Below are positions 4,691-61,508 of a stretch of 64,000 bases of DNA, piece by piece. This DNA is from Sclerodactyla briareus (taxonomy: Eukaryota > Echinodermata > Holothuroidea > Dendrochirotida > Sclerodactylidae). The translations under genes and the position numbers were made by a program. The stretch is from NCBI GenBank assembly GCA_026419785.1, contig JAODTK010002010.1:62001-126000 (forward strand), given 5' to 3'. The number at the start of each line of letters is the position of its first letter. Positions within the stretch are counted from its first letter, which is position 1. The notes beneath the pieces are model-generated. The model saw only the letters and a list, made by a program, of their open reading frames with translations. It was not told where the DNA came from and searched no databases.

Positions 4691-4721
4691 TGAACCCCAA
4701 GGTTTTGTTGTATATCGCGAG

Positions 4722-5110
4722 AATGACAAACTGTATAGGTCCAAACCCCATTTCGATACGATGTTCCTGTGTGGAGTTAGTGGCCTTATGTAGAGAATTG
4801 GGGTGGAATCCAAATCGCGCCATGACGCATGACTGCACACTTGACCCCCAGGAAATTATGTATTCATTGTTTCTTCTTCCGTTGGTAATGTCAACAATAA
4901 CAGAAGTGTTGTTGTCTTTCTTTCACCAAAGTAACCATCAACACCTACCAACCACTATAGCAATCTGCTCCCATATGCTAAATGCTTTTCAAAGTGAAAT
5001 TGATGTGTGAATTTCAATAGAAACAAAGAATGGTTGCAGGGTTGTGCACGTATGACATCATTTATTATTGCATGATGGGGTGCGTTTCTGTAGGACTGTA
5101 AAGGACTGTA
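4722..5110 (+). repeat. Dispersed repeat family A, forward copy
   Basis: Shares ATAGGTCCAAACCCC, TGTGGAGTTA, the CAACACCTACC box and AAATGCTTTTC with copies at 18671, 45255 (reverse), 48143, 52670, 12880 (reverse) and 17575 (reverse). No coding capacity is shared between copies. Non-autonomous element of unknown class. Confidence 0.8.
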
Positions 5111-8200: not shown

Positions 8201-8676
8201 GTATGAGCGGTTTTGTCGCTCGTAGACCTGAAACCAGGTATTTTTTGGGAATCATTATCATCCAGTTTTAATCCGGTGTTTTCCCCGAATGCGAGGGTGG
8301 ACGGATTCACCTTACACTGAAAGCAAGTGCCCAGCCGTCTGTAGTGGTTTAGTCATATAATTCTGCTCATTCACCCCCCCAAAACTCAAAATGATCCCCA
8401 TCTATTGTATTAACATCACCCAAACACACAGCTCTCTCTGCGGCTTAGAGATCTCCTAGAATTTAGGAGCATCTTGGAAACCTCATATTTATCACGCAAC
8501 TGACACTAATGGCATGCTTGCTACCTAGAACCTTCGATTGCTTTACCAGATAAAGAAAAAAGGGAATACATATCGTATATTCTTTTCACTATTACCGAAC
8601 AATTTCCTTCCAAAAATTCCTAAGATCTAAGCTGTTTTGTCAAGTCTGTTTCTCTTCTCAAATACAGGCATTGCCC
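5270..8676. other. Long stretch without a convincing gene
   Basis: Contains a TA microsatellite at about 5911-5921 and a two-copy imperfect duplication of a GAGGCCAAGGAAG-like unit at about 7264-7360. An open frame of ~105 codons at 6691-7005 follows TTGTTTATAG, a weak acceptor. Its peptide has no features I recognise and chance cannot be excluded. Confidence 0.35.
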
Positions 8677-9425
8677 GCCAGTGTCTCGCCTGGTTGCGGC
8701 GATCAGTGATTTCTTCTTTTAGTCACTATGCAAACATTACAGAAGGCATTCCATAGTTGCTTTAATATCCCAATACCTCTTACATATTTAAACAATCATG
8801 TACGCACCTTGAACATAGCAAACCTAACAACAACTGTGGGTCTTCGATCCTACCTACTGTACCCCCCATTATAAATCAATGATTACTGAGTTTAATAGTT
8901 TTCCCTTCTGATTACTGGATGTCCAAACAATGTAAACGATCCTAAATTAAAAAAGTTTTCAATATATCATGCAAAGAGTATGCCCTTTATACATCTACAC
9001 TTCCAGTACTCCTAGGGGTTCACACCACACCACACCCACCCCTCTCACAGTCTACTTGAAGCCTCCCCTGTCCTAGAGTGGCATAAGCCATCTTATTAGA
9101 CTCCCCTAGCAGGTGAAACCGACACCCTCAGGCTGCTGGCTGTAGGCCCTATTGGCTGAAGCTGTATGACTATATAGGTGATTCAAGGGAATTCCACGTA
9201 ACTCATCTGCTCAATCAATTGTCAAAAGGTATGCCCATGACGTTGCTATGAATAAGACATAAATGAAATCTGTCTGTTACAGATAGGAATATAGTTATGG
9301 AATTGAATGAAAAGGACCTATTGAGGGGTTGAAAGTTGAAATGAGTGTAAAAATAGATATAGTTCTGCTTTATTGATAGTGATGCTGCGCTAGACTATAC
9401 CATGCTTAAATGGGTAGCCGAGAGG
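8677..9425 (+). repeat. Dispersed repeat, partner at 54716-55505
   Basis: Runs of near-identical order with the distant copy: GTGTCTCGCCTG, GCGATCAGTGATTTCTT, GGCATTCCATAGT, TGTCCAAACAATGTAAACG, CAGGCTGCTGGCTGTAGGCC and CTGAAGCTGTATGACTATAT. It is colinear for about 750 bases in the same orientation, with frequent small gaps. No reading frame is conserved between the copies. The 54.7 kb copy carries extra sequence upstream that this copy lacks. Confidence 0.85.
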
Positions 9426-9499: not shown

Positions 9500-10870
9500 T
9501 TTGGATAATTGAATGCCCTTTGATAACATAACAGTTTTATGGAATATCCCATAATAAATGAGCACCTTGTCTCGAAACATCAGCAGATCAAAATACAGTT
9601 TTGAAGTTGTTGCAGAAACTGTTATTATTTGGCATTATTGGTCCATAAGGCCTTGAATGACATTTAATTGACATTTAAAATTTTATGAAAAATGTTACCC
9701 TGATAATATGCTGCATGTCCCAACTTCCAGCCATATCACACACAGTCACTCGAGGCTGTTGCAGGAAGTTATTATTGGCAGTTCTTGGATCCTTGAGTGA
9801 CCTTAAATGACCTTTGAACATGACGGATTTCTATGAAAAATGCTTGCCTCGATGGATGCACCAAGCCTCAAAGATATGTAATCAAGTACACACGCCCTAT
9901 GCTATCGCCCAAAAGTATCCAAATTCGACCTTTGCCCCCTTGTAACTGAGACCAGGTGTCAGATCGAAGGGGAGTTGGTTTCGTCTATGTAGCCACACAA
10001 AGCTATATCAATATCCAAAATGACGTTTATTTCTTTGGCCTGTAACTCTAAAATAAGGCACATTTTCTTAAATGTGAGTCCTTTTCACCTTGTCTATAGA
10101 TGTTGATTGATGCAACTGAACCCAAAACTACATGACAATCTCTACAAGCACCCTAACTGCACTCATTCCAATGTTACTGGCCATTAAACAAAACTTCGAG
10201 AAAATTGCATAATTTTTCAACTTAGTCCATTAAATGACCTTTGGCCTGTTGTCAAATTTACAGATCAAAGTGTAGCATCTCCACCAAGTTTCATGAGGAT
10301 TCCCAAACTTTTTAAAATATGCCATAAATTTGCAAATTAGAGACATTAAATGCGAAGTAGTAACACTAAATGCCCTTTGTGACTCGTCCCTCCTGTAAAT
10401 TTTTGGGACTATAGATAAACAAGCTCCACCGAGTTTCGTCAAAATCCCACGAACTTAAAAAATATCGCATCAAATTAAGCAATTAGACTACTTAATATTA
10501 GCATATATCATGCATTCATCTACTCTTTCGTTACTCTTCATAGTTTTATAATAACTCCGACGGCTTCACTATGCCTCTACGATCAATAGATATCTTGTAC
10601 ACAAGCTCCGGGCCAATTTTTCATTAAAATTATGCCAAATTAATGTCAAAGGAGTAATGGTCTTTCGGGACGAAAAGTGGATTCACATCAGCAACTCCTT
10701 CATAGCGCACCTCCACAAAAAAGGTCCCAGCACGATTGCTTTCACGGTTCAGAAGATAATGGGAAAATCGAACCGCGCATACGGACGGACAGACCAACAA
10801 CAGCAAGAACAGACACACACACAAAGTGACCACTATGTCTCTCCTTGAACAAAGTTCAGGCGAGACAAAA
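9500..10870 (+). repeat. Stem-loop-tailed dispersed repeat, forward copy
   Basis: Shares ordered blocks with 59660-61508: GACATGACGG/GACATGGCGG, TATGAAAAATG, GATCGAAGGGGAGTTG, CACACAAAG, then AGTTTCATGAGGATTCCC and a TTAATTAGCAT-like stretch. The right end has CGGACGGACAGACC followed by the 10836-10867 hairpin. Many TGACCT half-sites are embedded, for example about 9799-9815. Non-coding. Confidence 0.75.
10836..10867 (+). other. Terminal stem-loop of the dispersed repeat
   Basis: TGTCTC pairs with GAGACA, and the inner arm CCTTGAAC pairs with GTTCAGG around an AAA loop, giving about 13 base pairs with one internal mismatch. It sits at the 3' end of the repeat, as the hairpins at 366-385 and 61478-61506 do. 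Confidence 0.75.
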
Positions 10871-18064: not shown

Positions 18065-18660
18065 GGAAAGCTGCACGTTAGTGACACGTAACTCCGTAAG
18101 CAGTATAGTTGACTATTTTATGAAGTCTTAGGGCCGGTTGGGATCCACTGTCCCCCCCCCCCTGAAAACAGCGCGTAGCCGCCATTCGTGTTCGGGAGGG
18201 GGGGGGGGAGGAGGTATTTTCCCCGATTAGAATTTCTTCCCAGTACCTCGCTACGAAGTGAAGATGGGGGTTTGTTTATTTTCATTTCGTTTTCCTATCC
18301 ATTTCCCGTTTTTGAGCCTTCGTGTTCCCGATTTCCCCCTCTCGATTCGTGTGTCGGAGGGGGGGGGGGGGGGGACTTGACCCTCCCTCTAGCTGGACTA
18401 CCCTGGTCCGAGAGTAAGGTACACAGCTTTCCTATCAAGTTATCAATGGATGGGCGGCAGTTCCAAATGGGAATGCACTTGGTAGTGGTAGGTGTGGCCG
18501 CAATAGGCTACGTCCAATCCGGCAATCCGCCATGAATTTGAGCATTCAGTACAGTTCGAACTCCGAAATTCAAAAGACCGGATACCATTCCGCTGTTAAG
18601 GAGCTCCGTTTCAAAGGACACACGCGGATTGGAGACAACAGAGGTTAATATTGGAGAATG
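18065..18660. other. G- and C-run rich spacer
   Basis: C-run at about 18150-18162, G-runs at about 18197-18209 and 18358-18374. Frames here run through the homopolymers and are not believable as genes. Confidence 0.5.
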
Positions 18661-18670
18661 AAAAAAAATT

Positions 18671-19130
18671 ATCTAATAGGTCCAAACCCCATTCCAGTAC
18701 CACTGCTCATATGTGGAGTATGGCATTCAAAGTTATGGGCCAATTTAGCGAGAAAATTGGGGGAGAATCCCAAATGTACAATAGCGCATGACGTCAACAT
18801 GCGGACAACACAGGAAACTATGTTATGTGTTTGATTGTTTCATTTTGTGAGTTAGTCAACATTTAGCAGAAGTTATGTTGTATTTCTCTCACAAAGTCAC
18901 CACCAACACCTACCACCCAACAAACATCCTCTCTCATAGGCTAAATGCTTTTCGAAATGAAATTAATGATCGAATTTCATAGAAACAAAGATGTTTGCAT
19001 GTTTTCGAGTCTTGCGCATACACATGCTTCACAATACACAACCTCAAATGACTATATTCCTAACGGAAAGTCCGTATCTAACTTCCAATCGGACTAGCGC
19101 ATTCAGTTTTTATCCAGCTATTAAATTAGC
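18671..19130 (+). repeat. Dispersed repeat family A, forward copy
   Basis: One of the more complete copies: AGGTCCAAACCCCATT, GAGAATCCCAAATG, GTCAACATTTAGCAGAAG, CAACACCTACCACCC, AAATGCTTTTCGAAATG, and the end GCGCATTCAGTTTTTATCC followed by AGCTATTA. The same end occurs reversed near 45260-45285. Confidence 0.8.
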
Positions 19131-28419: not shown

Positions 28420-28472
28420 TTTTTTTATTTTTTTTATTTTTTTTATTTTTTTTATTTTTTTTATTTTTTTTA
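28420..28472 (+). repeat. Microsatellite (A T8)n
   Basis: Six nearly perfect 9-base units of A followed by eight T, directly before the diverged satellite array at 28490. Confidence 0.95.
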
Positions 28473-28489
28473 TGTGTTGTGTGTATGTT

Positions 28490-30500
28490 TTGCCTACCTT
28501 GTTAACACAATTTAAGTTACTCGACCACCACATAGATGGGTTGAAGTTCAACTCTTGGTATAGGGGTTCCCCATATTGAGTACATTATCCCTCCTGGTTT
28601 TGGGGTGAGGTGACAAAGGTCAATGTCTGAAAATCTTGTTGACCGATAGTCCAAAATGTCTGGCCGATCAGGTTGGAATTTAGTATATAGCTTTCTTGGG
28701 AGTAACGGAACCTTATTGTTTTTGTTCAGACCCGGGCTTAGATTTGGGAAGAATTTTGAAATTGTGGAAAAATGGATAATTTGGTCAAATTTTAGCTCAT
28801 TGAACAGGACACCTCAATCCCACTCGGATGGGTGCAAAGCTCATACTTGGTATGTGAGTTCCCAATAATGAGTATATGTGCACTATTGTTTTAGGGCCAA
28901 TTCAAAGGTCATCTGAGGTCACGGAATGTCAAAGTCTGAAAATCTTGTTTTGACAAGATACACTCCAGAATGCCATGGATTGATCAGGTAAAATTTCTTA
29001 TGCAGCTTTTAGATATGGGGCGTACAGGAAACCTATTGTTTTTTGTTAAATCGCGGGGTCAGATTTGGGGAAAATGTTGTAATTTTAGCTTGTTACGACG
29101 GTAACGTTCGAATCCACTCTGATAGCATAAGCTCATCTTCTCAAACAGCGGTATATGGGTTCCATAATGAGAACATGATCCCCAGTTTTGGGGTCAGGTC
29201 AAGGTCACCTGAGTCAAGTCTGGAAACCGTGTAACCACGATAAGTCCCTATTCCTGAGCCTATCCGGTTTGAAAATAATATTGTTGGCTGGTTTTAGCTT
29301 GTTAACAAGACCTTATCTCGGATGTATAGGCTCATACTCGGTATGCGAATTCCCCATGATGAAGTGAGTACTACATGACCCTACTTGTAAATCTTGTTAA
29401 CATGTGAAATTGACAATGCGCTAGCTTGATCAAGCCAGATCAGTCATAAATCACTTTTTCCTTTTTCTCTAGTTTTTTCATGGCAATCTCTCACCAGATG
29501 ATTCATTGACCTCATTAGCTGGACATAGCCAGCAGGTGGCCTGTGATCGGTTTGGAAATCTGACTGCAAACTAGCATGAATGGTGGTCCCGGAGAAGACC
29601 CTTATACTGTCAGGAGAAATTGGTAGGGGGGAGAAGATTCTTTAGAAAGATAATAAAACCAACCCTAATGGATATTGGAAGTAAATCGCCCAAGAAAATG
29701 TTGAAGTTGGTGATAGAAGTAGGGGGAGGGTCCAGTATGTTGGACACAAATGTTTCCATTTCTTCTTTTGCCACGGTCAATTTTACCAGGTTTTGCAACT
29801 GTTATAATCAGTGTTTATTCATGGCCCAAACACCTTACTCTTCCTTTCATCCTTTATAGACTGAAGAAACATTGTTTCCTCTTGGGTGGTTTCTTGGAAA
29901 TGCAAATTCTTTGTATCCTCTTTGATTCATCTATAGATGATGAATCAGTATGTACATGCCCTGTTGTTCTGGTGTCATGCCGAGGTCCAGCAGGAGGTCA
30001 ACATTCTGTAGAACCTTGTTGTAACATGACTAATGGGATCAGATCAAGGTGAAATTTGATGTGTTTCATAGAGTGTCAATTTTAGTGTAGATGGGTTTCA
30101 TTGGGAGGCAAAAGGAATTCATTGAATTGATCTTTTCAACTATTTTTTGCTTGTGAACATGATTCACTCGACCCGCCCAATGGATGAAGCTTATATATAC
30201 TTGTTAGGTATGCTCCTTATGATGAGTAATAACTGTATTGTTTTTTGGGGCTGTCCAAATTGAAGCATTCAATTTTTGAAATCGTGCACTGATTGGAATT
30301 TTAGTGGGCAGCTTCCCTATCAATCAAAAGTACATGGGCAGGAACCCTATTGGCTTGTCAAGGTGTTGTCAGTTGTTTTTTTTTTAACTATGGAATTTTG
30401 TGAGAAATGTTGTCCATAATGAGCTGGTAACACCTTTCCTATTGTTTTTTTTTGTCTAGACATAATTTTCAATTCGAAATGATTGAAGGAATATGTAGGT
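28490..30500 (+). repeat. Old, diverged array of the ~310 bp satellite
   Basis: Monomer landmarks recur: CATACTTGG or CTCTTGGTATAG (28553, 28842, 29333), GGAACCTTATTG or GAAACCTATTG (28708, 29028), AGGTCATCTGAGGTCA (28906), GATCAGGT (28665, 28982), and CTTGTTAACA/CTTGTGAACATG (29392, 30150). The stretch 29440-29900 does not match and may be an insertion. The landmarks are far more diverged than at 32262-33500, so these are older copies. Confidence 0.75.
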
Positions 30501-31594: not shown

Positions 31595-32109
31595 CGACAA
31601 GAAACTGCCTCTCTTTCAAAGGAAGGGTAGGTATTCTTCATTAGCATGGAGCAACCTGATTGCTAGTGGATTCGATTCGGGTCTCTTGACTGGGGGAGCT
31701 ACATCTTCAGGCAATTTGAGAGATCATGTTGTTGATCATGTATTTAAAAGCCTACATCTACTCGGTGGTAGTCGGCGGGGGGGGAGGGGAGTGGGAAAAT
31801 TTTAGTTTTGAGCCACATCCGTGGAGCCTGGAAGTTTTTGTAGAAATCTAACCACCATTGGCCGTGCCCAATCCTTTCCACCAGAGAACATTAACCCAAA
31901 AGGCCCAATCATTCTGACTGTCCAACATGTACCTAAGAGCCGACTAATGCCAAGTATAGCCCAAAGCCTGGATAACATGGTAAAAAGAGCAACGATACTC
32001 CTGCCTGTTGTTAGTATCTGGACCAAGGAATGGAAAGTAGTATCAGCAAATTTAGCGACACTTTGCAAGCAGATATTCCGGGTTCAATATCCCTGGCGCA
32101 GTTAAGACT
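31595..32109 (+). other. Tail of the coding-like island
   Basis: A plus frame of 94 codons (31821-32105) ends at the edge of the satellite head tag. A short G-run lies at 31777-31793. Base composition remains closer to 30552-31594 than to the satellite. There is no function to assign. Confidence 0.25.
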
Positions 32110-32154
32110 TTTTGATTCCTTGACGAAGTCAGAGGAATCTATGCAGTCATGACA

Positions 32155-32188
<34 letters not shown>

Positions 32189-32212
32189 ATGTATGTATGT
32201 ATGTGTGTATGT
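32155..32212 (+). repeat. Microsatellite (TG)n(TATG)n
   Basis: GT dinucleotides pass into GTAT tetranucleotides and back to GT. The same type of repeat follows the head tag at 830, 24045 and, reversed, 35833-35858. Confidence 0.95.
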
Positions 32213-32634
32213 AACGCTGGCTTTGTAGTCAGCACGATCATCGACCCCATCTGGATGGAAGAAGCTCATACTTGGTATGTGTGTTCCCCATGATGAGTAC
32301 ATGAACCCTATTGTTGGGGTCAGGCCAGAGGTCATCTGAGGTCACCAGAGGTCAAGTCTGAAGAATTTGTGAACACGATAAGTCCAAAATGGTTGGTCTG
32401 ATCAGGTTCAAATTTGGTGTGTAGCTTCCTCATTGGGAGTACAGGAACCCTATTGTTTCTGGTATAGGTCGGTGAGTGATTTTGTTGGATGGAAAATAAA
32501 ATTTGTGAAAAGTCAATATTTTGGCCCATTTCGGCTTGTGAACACGATAACTTGACCCCACCTGGATGGATGAAGCTCATACTTGGTATGTGTGTTCCCC
32601 ATGATGAGTACATGAACCCTATTGTTTTGGGGTC

Positions 32635-32667
32635 AGGTCAGAGGTCATCTGAGGTCACCAGAGGTCA
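32635..32667 (+). promoter_or_regulatory. AGGTCA direct-repeat cluster (DR1, DR4, DR4)
   Basis: Four AGGTCA half-sites at 32635, 32642, 32652 and 32662 with spacers of 1, 4 and 4 bases. The next monomer repeats this exactly at 32948-32980, and others have three sites (32321-32343, 33265-33290). AGGTCA direct repeats at these spacings are the known binding pattern of dimeric nuclear receptors. Whether any protein binds here is untested inference. Confidence 0.4.
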
Positions 32668-33929
32668 AAGTCTGAAAACCTCGTGAACACGATAAGTCCA
32701 AAATGGTTGGTCTGATCAGGTTCAAATTTGGTGTGTAGCTTTCTTATGGGGAGTACAGGAACCCTATTGTTTCTGGTATAGGTCCGGGGGGTGAATTTTG
32801 TGAAAAATAGAAAATTTGTGAAAAGTCAATATTTTGGCCCATTTCGGCTTGTGAACACGATAACTTGACCCCACCTGGATGGATGAAGCTCATACTTGGT
32901 ATGTGTGTTCCCCATGATGAGTACATGAACCCTATTGTTTTGGGGTCAGGTCAGAGGTCATCTGAGGTCACCAGAGGTCAAAGTCTGAAGAATTTGTGAA
33001 CACGATAAGTCCAAAATGGTTGGTCTGATCAGGTTCAAATTTGGTGTGTAGCTTTCTTATGGGGAGTACAGGAACCCTATTGTTTCTGGTATAGTCGGGG
33101 GTGAATTTTTGTGAAAAATAGAAAATTTGTGAAAAGTCAATATTTTGGCCATTTCGGCTTGTGAACATGATAACTCGACCCCACCTGGATGGATGAAGCT
33201 CATACTTGGTATGTGTGTTCCCCATGATGAGTACATGAACCCTATTGTTTTGGGGGTCAGTCAGAGGTCATCTGAGGTCACCAGAGGTCAAAGTTGAAGA
33301 ATTTGTGAACACGATAAGTCCAGAATGGTCGGTCTGATCAGGTTCAAATTTGGTGTGTAGCTTTCTTATGGGGAGTACATGAACCCTATTGTTTCTGTAT
33401 AGTTGGAGGAATTTGTGGAAAATAGAAAAATTCTGAAAAGTCCTTTTTGGCCCCTTGCGGCTGTGAAACATGATACTCAGCCACCTCACCTGGATGAACA
33501 CCTATACGTCCAGAATGGTTAGTCTGATCGGGTTTGAAATTTGGTTTGTGTAGCTTTCCTATGGGGAGTACAGGAATCACGATTGTTTTTTGTATAGGTC
33601 CTGAGGTGAATTTTAGTCGAAAATTGGAAATTTTGTGAAAGTCCATGTTTTGGCCATTAAGGCTTGTGCACACATTAATCGACCCCCACCGCATGATGAA
33701 GCTCATACTTGTGCCTTCCCATGATTAGTAATGAACCCTATTATTTGGGGGTCAGCTCAGAGGTCATGATATTAGCATGCCCCCATGTTTTCAGGGTCAC
33801 CATAGGTCAAGTCTGAAATCCTTGAAATGTGTGTAGCTATCTGATCAAGAGTATAGGAACCCTATTAAATTGGTTGGTAAAAATGTGAAATTTGTAGACG
33901 ATATGTGTCCCATGGATATCTCCTCTCAA

Positions 33930-34370
33930 CATTTGTCCTTGTGTTTGGTATGGTTCCGAAGAGTCAAGGATCACTAAGCAGCCTTTTGCTTTCTGGTTTC
34001 CTCCTTTGCATTTGCACGGGCGAATTGAGTCTTTGGTCTTCACTTCATATTCCGCTGTCATCAGTGGACTTTCCAGGTTTCTGGGGTTTGTTACAAGATA
34101 TTTGCAGTGAGTCCTCGTCTGGCGGCTGTGAGCACTCCTCCAGTACCAAGAAAGGATCAGGTCCCTGGACTTCATGCTTGTCCCTTTTCTGATGGGGATG
34201 TAAACTGCGGTCCCGGTGAGTAGGTTGATATTGGTTTATCCCCCTGCCTGGATATATCTTGAGCCTTGCTGTCAGAGAGAGCATGTTAATCGCCTGTGCT
34301 CATCCCAGTCAATATGGTTATATTTGATGAGCCTCATGTGGCTTCCTGAACACCCATATAATTAATGAAA
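33930..34370 (+). repeat. Dispersed repeat, copy 1 (partner 46470-46855)
   Basis: Shared order with the partner: TTGGTCTTCACTTCAT.TTCCGCTG, TGGATTTTC/TGGACTTTCC, TCTGGGG.TGTTAC, ATATTTGGCA/ATATTTGCAG with TGAGTC, CTGTGAGCA, GGGGATGTAAA and GATGAGCCT. Same orientation, about 12.5 kb apart. This copy lies in the spacer of the inverted satellite arrangement. Confidence 0.75.
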
Positions 34371-34479
34371 TCGTTTTGGTACACCACACAACCATCTGCA
34401 GGAGGGCCTTCCAGCCATTACACCACACTGCCAGTATACTACAAAGGACCACCATGTTTTGAAAGTTGGGGTCCAATGC

Positions 34480-34612
34480 ATTGGGGGGGGGGGAGGGGGT
34501 TGGAGGTAGGGTGAGAGTGGGCACCCTGATTCAGATATTGAGAGGCAATTTTTTTGTATGGGGAAAAATATGTATGGTGACCAATAGGGCTTATACCCCC
34601 CCCCCCCAACAT
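34480..34612. repeat. G-run and C-run pair
   Basis: A G-run at 34483-34492 with further G blocks, and a C-run at 34598-34608. The poly-Pro frames on the minus strand are artefacts of these. Confidence 0.8.
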
Positions 34613-35145
34613 TGGATTGCTGCATCTCACTAATGCCACTAACTTACTGGAGGTTTGACTACCATTGCCTGGCCAAACTTTACTGCTGAAATCTAAATAT
34701 CCTTCAAATGTGAGCAGTGTTGTGAACCTTTCGAAGATATTTCCCCACTGTCGTTAATATTCCCGGGCTAGATATCCCGCAGTTAACAGACTTCTTGTCG
34801 GTGCGTGTTTCCAGAGCGAGGTGATTGTATATTTGCAACTGTCAATTAGTTGCTCCACCGAGTGAGGCAAAATGTATGACAGAAGTATAATGTCCTCTCT
34901 AGAGGATGAGTGGACGAGCAACTTTTATATTTGGTGTTGTCGTGTTGCACCTGATATACCCGAGCCCTGCCTGCTTAGGCTTCCCTCCGGATTGGATTGC
35001 TGCATTTCACTAATGCCATTAACTTCTATATGCCTACTGGGGGTTTGACTTCCTCATATGGCCTTCGAAGTCCATCCCGACCTTTACATATGCATTCAAT
35101 GTGAGCAGGTCTTGTAGAAAACATGTCTACCCTACCGATATCCCC
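34609..35145 (+). repeat. Pair of ~130-150 bp direct repeats
   Basis: GGATTGCTGCATCTCACTAA (34613) recurs as GGATTGCTGCATTTCACTAA (34994), followed in both by TGCCA.TAACTT, ACTGG.GGTTTGACT and AATGTGAGCAG. Spacing is 381 bases. It lies between the two inverted satellite arms. Confidence 0.85.
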
Positions 35146-35269
35146 ACCTGTCTAGAGCTCTAACATGTGAGGTAGATCGCGATTTAAACCAGAAAGCACA
35201 AGGCTTAGTGATTCCTTGACTCTTCTGACAACCTATAGCCAGACACAGGACAAATGGGAGTTGCAAGTA

Positions 35270-35905
35270 CCGGCTCATCATGGGCAACATACGTCTGACA
35301 ATTTGACAAATTTCTCATTTCTCCAACCCACTAAGAGGTCCTGTACTCCTTGATAGAAAGCTACACCCTAAACTTCAAGGTTTTATGATTCTGACCTATG
35401 CTGAATCTCATATGACATCTGACTTCCAAGACCACTGCGGTGCATGTACTCTCATGGGAACACACATACAAGTATAGGCTTCAGCATCCATGTGGGGTCG
35501 CGTTTAATCGTATTCGAGCCAAATGGGCCCAAAATATCGGCTTTTCCCAATTTTTCTATTTTTGACAAAATTCACTCCGACCTGAACCAAACAATAATGT
35601 TCCTGTTACTCAACATGATAAATCTATACACCAAATTTAACTTGATCGGACCAAACATTCTTGACTCATCATGTTACAAGTTTCGCAGACTTTGACCTCT
35701 GGTGACTTCATATAACCTCTGACCTGACCCCAAAATAATAGTTTTCAGCACTCATATGGGAACACACATACCAATATAAGCTTCATCCATCCATGGGGTG
35801 GAGTGATGTTTGTTTCAAACCGCGACCACACTACATACATACACCCACACACACTGTCGTGACTGCATAGATTCGTCCGACTTCATCATGGAATAAAAAA
35901 AAGCG
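35270..35905 (-). repeat. Inverted ~310 bp satellite, about two monomers plus head tag
   Basis: Read on the minus strand it starts with the head GAATCTATGCAGTCACGACA (near 35872), a TG/TATG microsatellite, then GATGAAGCTTATATTGGTAT and TTTGGGGTCAGGTCAGAGG. A second monomer starts near 35480 and decays by 35270. It is the mirror of 32110 onward, with older divergence. Confidence 0.85.
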
Positions 35906-45254: not shown

Positions 45255-45835
45255 TACAGGGCTAATAATAGCGGATAAAAACTGAATGCGTCACCCCCCT
45301 CCCCCCTCCCCCCCCCCCCCCCCCCCCCACCCCCCCCCCTGTCAAAACAGGAAGTTCATAGGACTTTCTGTCCGGAGTATAGTCATTCGAAGTGTATGTA
45401 TTGTGAAGAATGTGATTGCGCCAAACATGAAATGCATCCCATCAGCAATAATTAATAATGTCATACTTGCACAACCCTGCAAATTTGGTTTGCTATGGAA
45501 ATATTAAACATTAAAAGTCACTCAAAAAGCATTTAGTCTATGGGCAGGGATTGCTGGTGGTTGGTAGGTGTGATGCGTTTACTTTTGGTGGGAGAAAAGA
45601 CACAACAGAACTCCTGCCTAATGTTGACTTATTCAACCGAATGAAACAATCAAAACATAAATAATTTCCTGTGTTAGTCCATGTGTGAATTGAGCGTTAT
45701 TTTGCAATGGGATTCTCCCCAATTTCTCTGCTTAATGGCCCCAAACTTTGAAGGCCAACAACTCACCACATAAGGAACATCTATTGAAATGGGGGTTCGG
45801 ACCTATAGATACAGGTTTGCATTCTCACAATATTA
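45255..45835 (-). repeat. Dispersed repeat family A, reversed copy with C-tract
   Basis: The minus-strand end is GACGCATTCAGTTTTTATCC. The body matches 18671-19130 and 52670-53090: on the plus strand AAAAGCATTTAGTCTATGGG, GGTGGTTGGTAGGTGT, TGTTGACTTATTCAAC, TGGGATTCTCCCCAATTTCT and CGGACCTATAG. A C-tract with 21 consecutive C (45308-45328) sits between the end and the body, where other copies have only short C or G stretches. Confidence 0.8.
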
Positions 45836-46469
45836 ACCTCGTTGTATCGAGCCTGCAGAGCGTCCTGTAAGGTGGAGGGGGATTAGAAAGCTGTCGATGG
45901 AATAACACATACAAATTAACAATTGCGTTGGGTAATTATCTTTATCACTCATATGATGGCCACTCGGACGCACCATTCATTATCTATCCAGGTCCAAGCA
46001 TAAGCAGTTGGGATGTTCCAAAGACTTTGCCACCTCCCTCCTCACAATTTCCACACACACCACTGACCAGGTACAGAGAGTTTCAAATGATTGAATATTA
46101 TACCACAAACTTACAAGGGAATATCCTCAATGTACAAATTAAAAAACTTTCAAACAACATACTCTGTGTGCATGGATTGTGTAAAAATATTAAAATAGCA
46201 CTATTCTACTCAAATTATGGTAGGAAAGAGCAGAAAGGACTGGATGGCACAAGAGGCAGACAAGCTTGCCTGAAACTTCCTGTCACCTGAAAAATATATA
46301 TATAACTCTTTCAAGTTGAAAGGGATGCTGAGTTGTTAGATCACCTGCTGGTCGATACGTAAGTTTTTTTTGTCAGTAACAATCGTTGGTGGTTCATAAA
46401 ACGAGCAGAAACCTCCATGGACGGAAGAATGGTATGGTAGAGTGGTATCGTGACATTTACAAAGCAGTA
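45836..46469 (+). other. One 120-codon frame, otherwise nothing
   Basis: The plus frame 45928-46290 (MGNYLYHSYDGHSDAPFIIY...) is the longest ATG-initiated frame in this part. It has no splice context or motif I know, and its composition is AT-driven (Asn, Ile, Tyr, Lys). Probably chance. Confidence 0.2.
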
Positions 46470-52515: not shown

Positions 52516-52669
52516 CGAAGTAGTGATGGGAAACATGGGGTGTGAAAAAATCATTACCACCTCCTGTAGACAGGCCTCCCAACGTTGGAGGGGGCCTATG
52601 GACCGCCATGCACCCCCTAGGGGCTGTGCCCTTGACTGCAGGCTTTGAACAACAGAGATAGATCGTGGA

Positions 52670-53090
52670 GAAGGAAAACTGATCTATGGGCCCAAACACC
52701 ATTTTAATACGATGTTCCTATGTGGAGTTAAATTGGCCTTTAAGTTTGGTTCCATTATGAAGAGGAATGGGGAGAATCCCAAGTGCACAAATAACGCATG
52801 ACATCACAATTGGACAACCGGGAAGGGTATGTCATGTATTGCATTGTTTCACTTGTTGAATAAGTCAACATTTAGCAGAGGCTGTTGTCTTTCTCTCACC
52901 AAAAGTAACCATCAACACCTACCACCCAACTACAGCAATCTTCTCCCATAGGAATAAATGCTTTGCAGTGAAAATAATGTGCTTTTCGATCTTGTGCAAT
53001 ACACAGCACAACGTCAGAAGACTGTAACTCTGTAACAGCGAGTCGTACCAAACTTCGGGTTTGGACTGACGCATTCAATTTTTCTCTTGC
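52670..53090 (+). repeat. Dispersed repeat family A, forward copy
   Basis: CTATGGGCCCAAACACCATT, GATGTTCCTATGTGGAGTTA, GAGAATCCCAAGTGC, TAACGCATGACATCACAATT, AGTCAACATTTAGCAGAGG, CATCAACACCTACCACCCAA and GACGCATTCAATTTTTCTC. With 18671 this is among the least damaged copies. Confidence 0.85.
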
Positions 53091-54479: not shown

Positions 54480-55505
54480 GCGAAGCTTTTTCGAAAATGA
54501 GGAGGAGGAGGCACTTACTTTTGCTTTTTTTTCAGGCGAACCGACTATTGCTTATCAAAATGTGTATTACAAGATGGTTGTCCCACATGACCTTTTCTCA
54601 GAGGAGGCGGCCTTTCTCATTCTTTTTTATTTATGGTTCTACAGGGACCCAATTCCAACATATTATTCAAAAAAAGTTATGGCTTGAATGAAGAAACAAG
54701 GCGACTCGCTCCTCCCGTGTCTCGCCTGTTGCCGCGATCAGTGATTTCTTTTACTTCTATTTATCACCATGCAAACAATTACCATACACCAGGCATTCCA
54801 TAGTGTGCTTTAATATCCAAATACCTCTTAAATATTTAACATATCATCTACACCCCTTGGACCATAGCAAAACCGAACAACATACTGAGGGTCTTTGGAT
54901 CCTAACCTACTGTACCCTCCTCCATTATAAACATAATTACTGAGTTAATAGTTCCCAATTCAGAATTATGTATGTCCAAACAATGTAAACGGATCCTCAA
55001 TCTAATAATGTTTTTATCCCTGTCTCAATATCACAGGTATGTCCCTTTATACATCTACCTACTTACTACTTCCAGTAACCTCCCATGGGAGTTCACACCC
55101 ACCCCTCTCACACACTCTTGCAAGCCATCCCCTGTCTAGATGGCATAGAGCCATCTAATTAGACTCCCCTGGCAGGTGAACCGACACTCTCAGGCTGCTG
55201 GCTGTAGGCCCTATTGGCTGAAGCTGTATGACTATATAAGTGATATAAGTGGAATTCCACTGTACTCACTGCTGCAATCAATTGTCAACAAGGTATGCCC
55301 CTGAAGTTGATATGAATAAGCCAATACATGGAATCTCTGTCCCTGGTGATCAGATAGGGAATACTATTTAGGGAAATTGAATGAAAATACCATACCCATG
55401 GTGACGCAAAGTTGCAATGAGTAACAATTCAAATCGAATATAGTCTCACGGCTTATCTTTCTAGGGTGCTGAGCTAGACTCAATACCATTCTTAATGCGT
55501 AGCTT
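54480..55505 (+). repeat. Dispersed repeat, partners at 8677-9425 and 58745-59165
   Basis: The left part (54480-54715), with CTCAGAGGAGGCGGCC, GGTTCTACAGGG and CAAAAAAAGTTATGGCTTGA, matches 58745-59165. The right part (54716-55505), from GTGTCTCGCCTGTTGCCGCG to the end, matches 8677-9425. This copy therefore joins two pieces found separately elsewhere and is the most complete. Two short plus frames (54472-54691) lie in the left part but are not conserved in the partner. Confidence 0.85.
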
Positions 55506-59420: not shown

Positions 59421-59659
59421 ACTAGAGAATGTCGGGAGGGTAAACCGCCAAGACATATATACCCCCGCATCTCTTATTGAAGAAATTTGGGGAACATGAA
59501 ACCGGGACAATATTCGTGGAAATGAAGACATTATAGACTTGTGAAGAGTGACACGTGTACAGGTAGGAATCGGGATATTCCATAATCCACTTGTCAAGTG
59601 TATGAGGCACCCCAACAGCCGGGACAAGGTGCGTCCTTAAAAAGCACATTAATTCAAGA

Positions 59660-61508
59660 GCGACTCTTTATGACAGGGCCACCCGAAAGAGGTCAACTTC
59701 AGGTCAGAGTCACACACATGCAGGTCGACAATATATCCCAATGGTGAACCATCCACCTTCGCAGATATTCAATCTTTATCTTTTCCGCTTATAGCCAAAA
59801 AACAGTGTTTGACCCCTAAGGACTCGAATGACCTTACTGATTATGACAGTTTTTATGAAAATTGGTACTCCCCTGTGATACATCCAACTCCTATGGAGCA
59901 TTTGCATTACTGATAACACCCCAGTGCTATTGCCGAAAGAGGACTAAAATCAGTTTTGGACCCCTAAGTGACCTTTAATTGACCTTCAATGACATGGCGG
60001 CTTTTATGTAAAATGTTACACTCCATGTGATGCATCCACTCCTAGATAATATGCATTCCAATGAACATGTCCAATGTTATTGCGAAAAAGGTATAAATTA
60101 AACTTTGACCCTTGGAACTACCAAAGTAGTAGGTCCGATCGAAGCGGGAGTTGTTTTCTCAATTACAAGCACACAAAGTTCTATCACATAGCCAAAAATA
60201 ACCAGTTGCTACTTTTTTCCCCGGAAACTCCTTAAATAAGATCATTTATTCAAGATTCGACCTTTAAAACCACATGACCACCCGGACAGAGGTTCAAATT
60301 CAGGTCAGAGGTCACACACATGCAGGTCAAACAAATGAGATCACAATGGTGAAGCCATGCCAGCCTTCAGATATCAATTCTCCGAGTATAGCCAAAAAAA
60401 GTTGACCCCTAAGTTGGACCTCGAATGACTTTATGATATGACAGTTTTTATGAAAATTGTACTCGCCAGGTGATACATCCACTCCTAGGAGCACTTTTGG
60501 CATTCTATGAAACCACACCCAGTGCTATTGCCGAAAAAGTACTAAATAAGTTTTGGACCCTAAGTGACCTACTGACCTCAATGACATGGCGGTTTTATGA
60601 AATGGTTACACCCATGTGATGCAGCAACTCCTAGAAGCATATTGCCTTCCAATGAACATGTCCCAATGTTATTGCGAAAAAAGTATTAAAACTCTTCATT
60701 TGAATGATTCAGGACAACTAATATGCTAATTAGTCCCACAAACTTACCGTCAGTGATCTGGATTGCTATTGAATAAATTTATCAGGACTGGTAGTGAGGT
60801 CCTATTCACAAAGTTTTGTCAACTTACCTAAGAGTGAGAAAATAATGCATTACTTATTCTAATTTGCTAACGATAGTTAAATTAAGCACACATAATGACC
60901 TTCATGATTTCAACGCAATTGACTAAATATCGGGACTGTTCGAAGGTTCCCACTCCAAGTTTCGTGAGAACCAACAAGTTTATTAATTTGCCTAATTGCT
61001 GAATTAGTTCATGCAAGATGACCTCCAGTGGACCTCGGCCACATTAGGAAATCATCGGCACTGATAGTTGGCCCTATTCCCCAAGTTTCATGAAAAAGCC
61101 AATGAAGTTTGAAATATACGTACATTCTGCTATTAATTAGGCTATGGCCGAAGAAATGCAAACTGCCTCGGATGACCTCGAAATTGTCCACATGTTTTTC
61201 GGCTCCAACAACTACCCTCAACAACCAGTTTGTTGTAAATCGCACGAGGGGGGGGGGGACTTGACAATTTTTGCGAAAAACCTGCAAATAGAGGGCTAAC
61301 AAATCCAATACAGCCAATTTTCGAACTTATACGAGATTGTACTCATCGGACATGTGTACCACCAGTTTTGGGGCAATCGGATAAAGGTTAAAGATGTAGA
61401 GCGTAACGCCTAAATTTCGGCGGCGGGCGGCGGCGGCAGCGCGGCGGAGCGGCGGGCCACACGGCCAAAACCATAATATCCCCGAACAAGGACAGGTTGC
61501 GGGGATCT
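59660..61508 (+). repeat. Stem-loop-tailed dispersed repeat, most complete copy
   Basis: It has an internal near-duplication. GACAGTTTTTATGAAAATTG, TGATACATCCACTCCTA and CAGTGCTATTGCCGAAA occur at about 59846-59938 and again at 60439-60536. AATGACATGGCGG with ATGCATTCCAATGAACATGT or TTGCCTTCCAATGAACATGT also occurs twice (about 59988-60080 and 60583-60660). The right part has AAGTTTCATGAAAAAGCC, then a CGG-rich block (61419-61457), AACCATAATATC and a terminal hairpin. Non-coding. Confidence 0.8.
61478..61506 (+). other. Terminal stem-loop of the dispersed repeat
   Basis: ATCCCCG pairs with CGGGGAT and AAC with GTT around an AAGGACAG loop, with one bulged G. Its position at the end of the CGG-rich block matches the reversed copy at 365. 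Confidence 0.75.

Follow-up and report, generated by a model that had tools for sequence, protein, structure and literature searches.

AGGTCA direct repeats in the satellite array of a HINE-like element and in further repeat families of Sclerodactyla briareus

The AGGTCA-bearing satellite array described here makes up, at a probability of roughly three in four, the middle of a non-autonomous Helentron (HINE), whose copies have spread the AGGTCA clusters mostly as passengers. As a carrier, this element belongs to a class of rolling-circle transposons already described. Passive spread explains this satellite, which we call family A; it does not account for the AGGTCA DR4 (AGGTCA-N4-AGGTCA) found in other repeat families. 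Between them, the HINE and these other families have put thousands of receptor-site-like sequences into the host genome. Our analysis covered the window, meaning the whole 64-kb stretch of DNA, and the 319-Mb host genome (3,171 contigs); published work is cited by PMC number.

The satellite array and its carrier

TRF assigned the satellite a period of 313 bp and 4.0 copies, and TRF and BLAST placed four ~313-bp monomers on the plus strand at 32243-33475, with degenerate copies running on to 33767. Self-matches resolved the monomer into two diverged ~157-bp halves, the AGGTCA cluster being confined to one of them. An older, diverged array of the same family was located by BLAST/HMM on the plus strand at 28519-30255. 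Right before it, at 28420-28473, stands (TTTTTTTAT)6, which may represent the microsatellite of an older element that has since eroded.

The younger array lies inside a HINE-like element running from its 5' module to its 3' module (32109-33999, plus strand), as delimited by alignment of its LF (5' end) and RF (3' end) with a second copy and by genomic loci. This second copy, of the same family and with ~1.4 monomers, stands tail to tail with the first (35900-35186, minus strand) and has its 3' subTIR, GTCAAGGAATC, at 35210-35220. The inverted similarity between the two copies extends beyond the satellite on both sides: LF at 32109-32163 aligns without gaps to 35900-35846, the 5' end of the right copy being eroded, and in both copies the RF alignment ends at GGTTT. 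Allowing up to 3 mismatches, the outer box has two occurrences in the window, one on each strand. The 5' module of the left copy (32109-32139, plus strand) consists of a T-run, the subterminal repeat GATTCCTTGAC (32114-32124) and, 3 nt past it, the inverted partner GTCAGAGGAATC (32128-32139); the resulting hairpin has a z of -2.6, with 2 of 200 shuffles equally stable, and no such 5' hairpin was found in the decayed right copy. A (TG)n(TATG)n microsatellite detected by TRF (32158-32213, plus strand) separates this module from the array. The 3' module (33963-33999, plus strand), placed by alignment with the right copy and by genomic copies around GTCAAGGAATCACTAAGCCTTTTGGCTTTCTGGTT, comprises the subterminal repeat GTCAAGGATC (33963-33972), a weak palindrome AAGCA/TGCTT (33976-33991) and a terminus ending in CTTTCTGGTTT, an order shared by the right copy, with GTCAAGGAATC in place of GTCAAGGATC; neither 3' module in the window, both of them eroded, folds better than shuffles. 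Between the left 5' module and the 3' module of the right copy, 12 nt are complementary (0 of 2,000 shuffles), against 8 nt for the eroded 3' module of the left copy itself (36 of 2,000). Six-frame translation of the window revealed no Pfam domain and no protein of an autonomous partner, and neither RNA families nor tRNAs were found in it. A coding origin was rejected on the same absence of Pfam domains, the sole match among 99 open reading frames being a weak one to TMEM95 (E 0.0065).

Across the host genome, there were at least 40 LF matches (the best 40 of 3,238 first-look candidates being scored), at least 40 RF matches (the best 40 of 2,192) and at least 186 monomer matches (3,502 first-look candidates). 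From these, 20 loci were fetched, picked by LF alone. Monomer sequence followed LF in the same direction in 19 of them (as pieces only in L064, L066 and L078), L071 having LF without monomer sequence, and a same-direction RF lay further downstream in 15; in the fetched stretches of the other five (L066, L070, L071, L073 and L078), no 3' module was seen. Wherever monomers were present in an LF locus, they pointed the same way as LF, and none of the 20 mixed directions. The 5' module, with its T-run, subterminal repeat, inverted partner and microsatellite, recurred at unrelated sites, as did the 3' module with its inverted subterminal repeat and, in part of the copies, its palindrome. Among 24 five-prime ends, 21 started with TTTTT (as the query itself did), 21 contained ATTCCTTGAC and 16 the exact GTCAGAGGAAT. 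The 3' module was variable among the 18 three-prime ends compared, which speaks against a HINE: the exact GTCAAGGAATC was present in 6, the others having changes, and the palindrome appeared as the exact AAGCCTTTTGGCTT in 4 and as the core AGCCTTTTGGCT in 7. None of 17 LF-RF pairs had a direct repeat of at least 4 nt at its junctions (re-paired mean 0.77).

This anatomy agrees with that published for HINEs in PMC7492417 and PMC4067079. SubTIRs of the HINE type (~11-15 bp) occur at both ends, GATTCCTTGAC at the 5' and GTCAAGGAATC at the 3' end; an inverted partner adjoins the 5' subTIR, as in DINE-1 and the oyster HINEs; a left-module microsatellite precedes central tandem repeats of fixed orientation; and the 5' junction is T-rich without target-site duplication, on the comparison of the 17 pairs. 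By anatomy alone, Cg_HINE of Crassostrea gigas resembles the element in its 5' subTIR with complementary inverted repeat, a microsatellite mostly of 4-nt units, a short satellite-like array in fixed orientation, a 3' subTIR (followed by a palindrome that only part of the copies here carry) and T-rich insertion without target duplication; its monomers average 140-180 bp against ~313 bp here, and AGGTCA is absent from the main text of the paper (PMC7492417). The DINE-1/HINE elements of arthropods, likewise compared by anatomy alone, share subTIRs of 11-15 bp with an inverted repeat beside the 5' one (in DINE-1), a microsatellite and central repeats, and have a 3' stem-loop to which the palindrome in part of the copies here may correspond (PMC4067079). 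For the bivalve superfamily BIV160/Cg170, the comparison with two published primers (46 nt, PMC5139131) yielded no convincing support over shuffles. Exact box and monomer patterns had no match in the viral contigs or genome contigs of public collections, and no report of the family A satellite was found in the literature searched, from which subscription papers were mostly missing.

The long inverted arms in the window had suggested another carrier, namely one ~3.8-kb foldback transposon (32109-35900) with the satellite in its long inverted repeats, as in the anatomy of Tetris from Drosophila virilis, itself a transposon with satellite-like tandem repeats (PMC4079207). We give this next to no credence and dropped it: LF and RF are different, complete ends, and since the genome holds LF-array-RF units in one direction, the window contains two tail-to-tail HINEs rather than a single foldback element bounded by long terminal inverted repeats. 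Long TIRs and target duplications of 8-10 bp mark Tetris (PMC4079207), whereas the genomic copies here are single units, with junction repeats of at least 4 nt in none of the 17 pairs. The 20 LF loci largely refute the foldback reading.

AGGTCA clusters in the window and across the genome

The two central monomers, 32554-32866 and 32867-33176, each contain four AGGTCA with spacers of 1, 4 and 4 (DR1, DR4 and DR4), at 32635/32642/32652/32662 (cluster 32635-32667) and 32948/32955/32965/32975 (32948-32980), exactly where the earlier note had reported them. As it had also said, other monomers carry three: the motif scan found DR4-DR4 triples in each outer monomer of the array, at 32329/32339/32349 (32329-32354; monomer 32243-32553) and 33265/33275/33285 (33265-33290; monomer 33177-33475), all on the plus strand. 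The older array contains, as claimed, AGGTCATCTGAGGTCA at 28906-28921, which is a DR4, and additionally an AGGTCA DR0 at 29196/29202 (29196-29207). The cluster sequence of family A is GGTCAGGTCAGAGGTCATCTGAGGTCACCAGAGGTCAAAGTC, built of units of ~7-10 bp that each start with GAGGTCA, and it may have grown through local duplication of such units in an ancestral monomer. Among 69 monomers spanning the cluster in the LF loci, 66 had at least one AGGTCA, 53 at least two, 33 a perfect DR4, 23 a DR1 and 15 a triple. Because a family A monomer can hold four AGGTCA (DR1, DR4, DR4), each new copy or array expansion multiplies the sites; most copies would be passengers, decaying no differently from the element sequence around them.

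With 2-3 AGGTCA DR1-5 pairs per monomer, all four monomers exceeded every one of 5,000 dinucleotide shuffles each (shuffled mean at most 0.0008), and for the looser RGKTCA a single shuffle in 5,000 reached the observed number of pairs, in one monomer only. In the whole window, AGGTCA occurred 71 times against a shuffled 35.8 (sd 5.4), and AGGTCA/TGACCT ranked first among hexamers using all four letters for close direct pairs, with 18 against 0.35 expected. When family A was masked, 6 close direct pairs remained against 0.12 expected (runner-up hexamer 3; 2 for spacers 1-5). We read these six pairs as approximately three independent places, namely the minus-strand core of a distinct family B, its plus-strand cluster and a site at 2636; the shuffled expectation for pairs outside family A is 0.07, and the Poisson probability of at least three places is ~5e-5. 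Single hexamers outside family A were not enriched, AGGTCA numbering 40 against 33.5 (sd 5.7) in shuffles and RGKTCA being fewer than shuffled, at 115 against 145.8 (sd 12.6). Identical-hexamer pairs of the variants AGTTCA, GGGTCA and GGTTCA were absent outside family A within the window.

Genome-wide, the perfect DR4 occurred 18,337 times (9,180 + 9,157), where its rarity would be expected from the reversed pattern, present only 240 times in the 319 Mb, a 76-fold difference. AGGTCA DR3 numbered 3,176 against 136 and triple DR4 1,958 against 6 for the reversed patterns. For the human genome, 12,376 DR4 of the looser RGKTCA type are given in PMC1785376. Shuffles and the reversed control together rule out a chance origin of the pairs: two RGKTCA-type half-sites, directly repeated with a spacer of 1-5, are present far above chance, as expected of nuclear receptor elements. 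The earlier note had called these receptor-type dimer sites amplified by a repeat; the direct-repeat half-sites and their amplification are borne out, the array being part of HINE copies that occur at unrelated genomic positions. Its observation stands and is larger than its author knew, and its interpretation is supported in part, a rewiring of hormone or lipid-sensing control being conjectural.

In the first 100 DR4 places listed, the spacers TCTG (33) and CCAG (17), the main pair of family A, accounted for 50, with TTCA third at 10. We fetched 40 loci, 20 with triple DR4 and 20 with DR4, which were mostly picked for spacers unlike those of family A and so are not a random sample. In profile searches with AGGTCA masked in the targets (E<0.001), 12 of these matched A only, 2 matched A and E (L085 and L089), 7 E only, 7 D and 2 B; ten matched no profile (L087, L094, L098, L105, L108, L109, L110, L113, L120 and L121). 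Loci L084, L091 and L096 supplied the D profile, and L079, L085, L088, L089 and L095 the E profile, so that each of them matches its own profile by construction; the E match of L122 was marginal (8e-4). AGGTCA DR4 is thus found in at least four repeat families, and other families of the host genome share the motif with family A. L085 and L089 possibly have two satellite types side by side.

Family B, a tandem repeat of ~146-148 bp on the minus strand at 59787-60676, has AGGTCA direct repeats of its own: DR5 at 59969/59980 and DR2 at 60565/60573 on the minus strand, and DR1 at 60302/60309 and, just outside these bounds, DR5 at 59690/59701 on the plus strand. It is organised in composite units of ~595 bp (59634-60689), and an isolated minus-strand copy at 9764-9909 bears a perfect DR4 (9798/9808). 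A further ~145-bp family with a single AGGTCA and a GAAACTTGG-like stretch, resembling L105 by eye, may be present at 10229-10256 and 60700-61200. Also present in the window are two copies of a dispersed repeat with 77% identity over ~800 bp (8675-9418 and 54711-55503), and another dispersed repeat in four copies of 71-76% identity (4712-5088, 18632-18968, 45522-45858 and 52636-52981).

Either the families have a very old ancestor in common and the AGGTCA cluster is all of it that can still be read, or the motif was acquired more than once. Descent of all AGGTCA-bearing families from one very old ~150-bp repeat, with the DR4 as its last recognisable piece, is a reading that we hold tentatively, as somewhat less than an even chance. 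It is consistent with the similar lengths of the units or halves in families A, B, D and E (~114-160 bp), the same type of cluster in all four, a TTGGTG-like stretch noticed by eye 40-60 nt upstream in some families, and the match of L085 and L089 to both A and E. Against it, the four masked profiles otherwise miss one another's loci at E<0.001, and a relationship between A and B in particular was rejected, the similarity being lost once the hexamers were masked and the masked score falling below shuffles.

The distribution across families also bears on a role for the hexamers within the element itself, as putative recognition iterons for its own replication protein or an associated factor. 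The ~10-bp pitch and the single orientation relative to the element ends in the LF loci would fit such iterons, and the foldback element Galileo offers a precedent, its internal repeats being said, as cited in PMC4079207, to add transposase sites. However, L064 retains both ends with only monomer fragments between them, the same motif recurs in families whose ends are not defined here, and the signature structures of Helentrons sit in the terminal modules (PMC4067079); we regard such a function as improbable.

Half-site conservation and candidate host receptors

Half-sites were no better kept than neighbouring monomer columns, which argues against significant extra constraint on them. Across 11 old copies that lie in the window, agreement with the reference was 0.733 for half-site columns against 0.718 for the rest, and 60 of 116 slid placements equalled or beat them. 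The 20 LF loci yielded 61 monomers; scored by the frequency of the commonest base per column, half-sites there reached 0.884 and the other non-CpG columns of the same half 0.895 (p 0.37), or 0.941 and 0.920 when gaps were left out of account (p 0.12). Another, wider set comprised 101 monomers, among them the reference itself and a few duplicates (L052 and L056 overlap), and its values were 0.917 and 0.926. In a separate comparison by identity bands, half-sites slightly exceeded the monomer average in three of the four bands and fell below it in one, with many slid placements doing equally well. Selection on the half-sites was therefore not detected in the old copies or in the sets of 61 and 101 monomers. 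Spacers were more variable than half-sites, at 0.746 against 0.884 in the 61 monomers (p 0.0007), 0.834 against 0.941 with gaps ignored (p 0.006) and 0.821 in the wider set. This also fits selection on half-sites, and the weaker spacers are suggestive; indels and subfamily variants concentrate there.

Seven zf-C4 exon matches exceeded the cut-off, at five contig places (L099-L103), a small set for 319 Mb that is perhaps due to split exons. The exons at L099-L101 have the P-boxes CEGCK or CESCK, and the peptides of four of the five receptor loci (L102 left out) had as best PDB matches NR6A1 (E 1.2e-25), NR5A2 (3.4e-21), PPAR delta (2.3e-15) and EcR (5e-9), the last followed by FXR and LXR. P-boxes of the CEGCK and CESCK type read AGGTCA, LXR-type receptors use DR4 sites, and AGGTCA is the textbook direct-repeat half-site. 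By these exon matches, receptors whose DNA-binding domain is of the AGGTCA type are encoded in the host genome. Receptors with such a P-box would be predicted to bind the sites in vitro, which makes binding to family A sites plausible and would turn the element into a reservoir of sites, possibly a sink.

Repeat-borne receptor sites bind receptors elsewhere, as with Alu DR2 (PMC1785376) and the HNF4 sites in Alu (PMC3252374), and Helitron-borne sites helped to rewire dosage compensation in Drosophila (PMC4384637). Like the family A element, the ISX/ISY helitrons of Drosophila miranda are rolling-circle elements that disperse a defined protein-binding motif, with binding and selection shown for them, whereas the element here is known from its sequence (PMC4384637). 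Alu, through its DR2 and DR4, resembles it in that a repeat family contributes a substantial part of the receptor-type direct repeats in a genome, but it is a SINE whose DR2 arose largely via CpG deamination, whereas here the sites lie in a satellite monomer (PMC1785376). Among the two spacings counted in the host genome, DR4 is far more frequent than DR3.

These considerations bear on the reading, foreshadowed in the earlier note, that the AGGTCA clusters are putative working nuclear-receptor response elements by which the element would spread hormone- or lipid-sensing control or gain germline expression. In its favour are the 76-fold excess of perfect DR4, the occurrence of the motif in no fewer than four families, which apart from the two mixed loci show no mutual match in masked profiles, host exons resembling EcR/FXR/LXR, PPAR, NR5A and NR6A1, half-sites better kept than spacers, and the precedents in PMC1785376, PMC3252374 and PMC4384637. 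We nevertheless consider it unlikely, as half-site conservation is no higher than that of the rest of the monomer half and no identical pairs of variant half-sites occur outside family A in the window.

Spacing alone proves nothing, since triple DR4 also occurs in viral contigs, where several stretches derive from short tandem repeats. Of 50 IMG/VR stretches with AGGTCA triple DR4, at least 8 are (GGTCA)n tandem repeats and 18 (L002, L003, L008, L010, L012 and 13 others) have one conserved AGGTCA-N4-AGGTCA-N4-AGGTCA segment in common; none of the 50 matched family A convincingly (best E 0.1) or family B at all. As most IMG/VR contigs are presumably from phages, the arrangement would arise where nuclear receptors probably play no part. 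The segment common to the 18 stretches perhaps represents iterons of one phage group. A further role, in which orphan receptors on the arrays would act on chromatin or recombination and not on genes, is very doubtful in our view. NR2C/NR2F receptors on TCAGGG variant telomere repeats (PMC7691514) offer a parallel and the arrays hold many sites, yet PMC7691514 itself argues for an indirect role.

Several families with little recognisable in common apart from this motif, at least one of them rolling-circle borne, may have loaded the genome with ~18,000 perfect AGGTCA DR4, having converged on the motif or kept it as all else in them changed, because a host receptor (e.g., an NR6A1-like germline receptor or one of the NR1H/RXR type) binds it and thereby gives expression, chromatin opening or safe copying, a proposition that we consider decidedly unlikely. 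If it were true, the repeats would act as a sink for receptors and at the same time provide a regulatory network ready for use. With even a minor fraction of the sites occupied, receptor networks would face a large background of repeat-borne sites, and one insertion could create a response element in a single step. The multi-family pattern permits a direct test of transposon selection for host receptor motifs.
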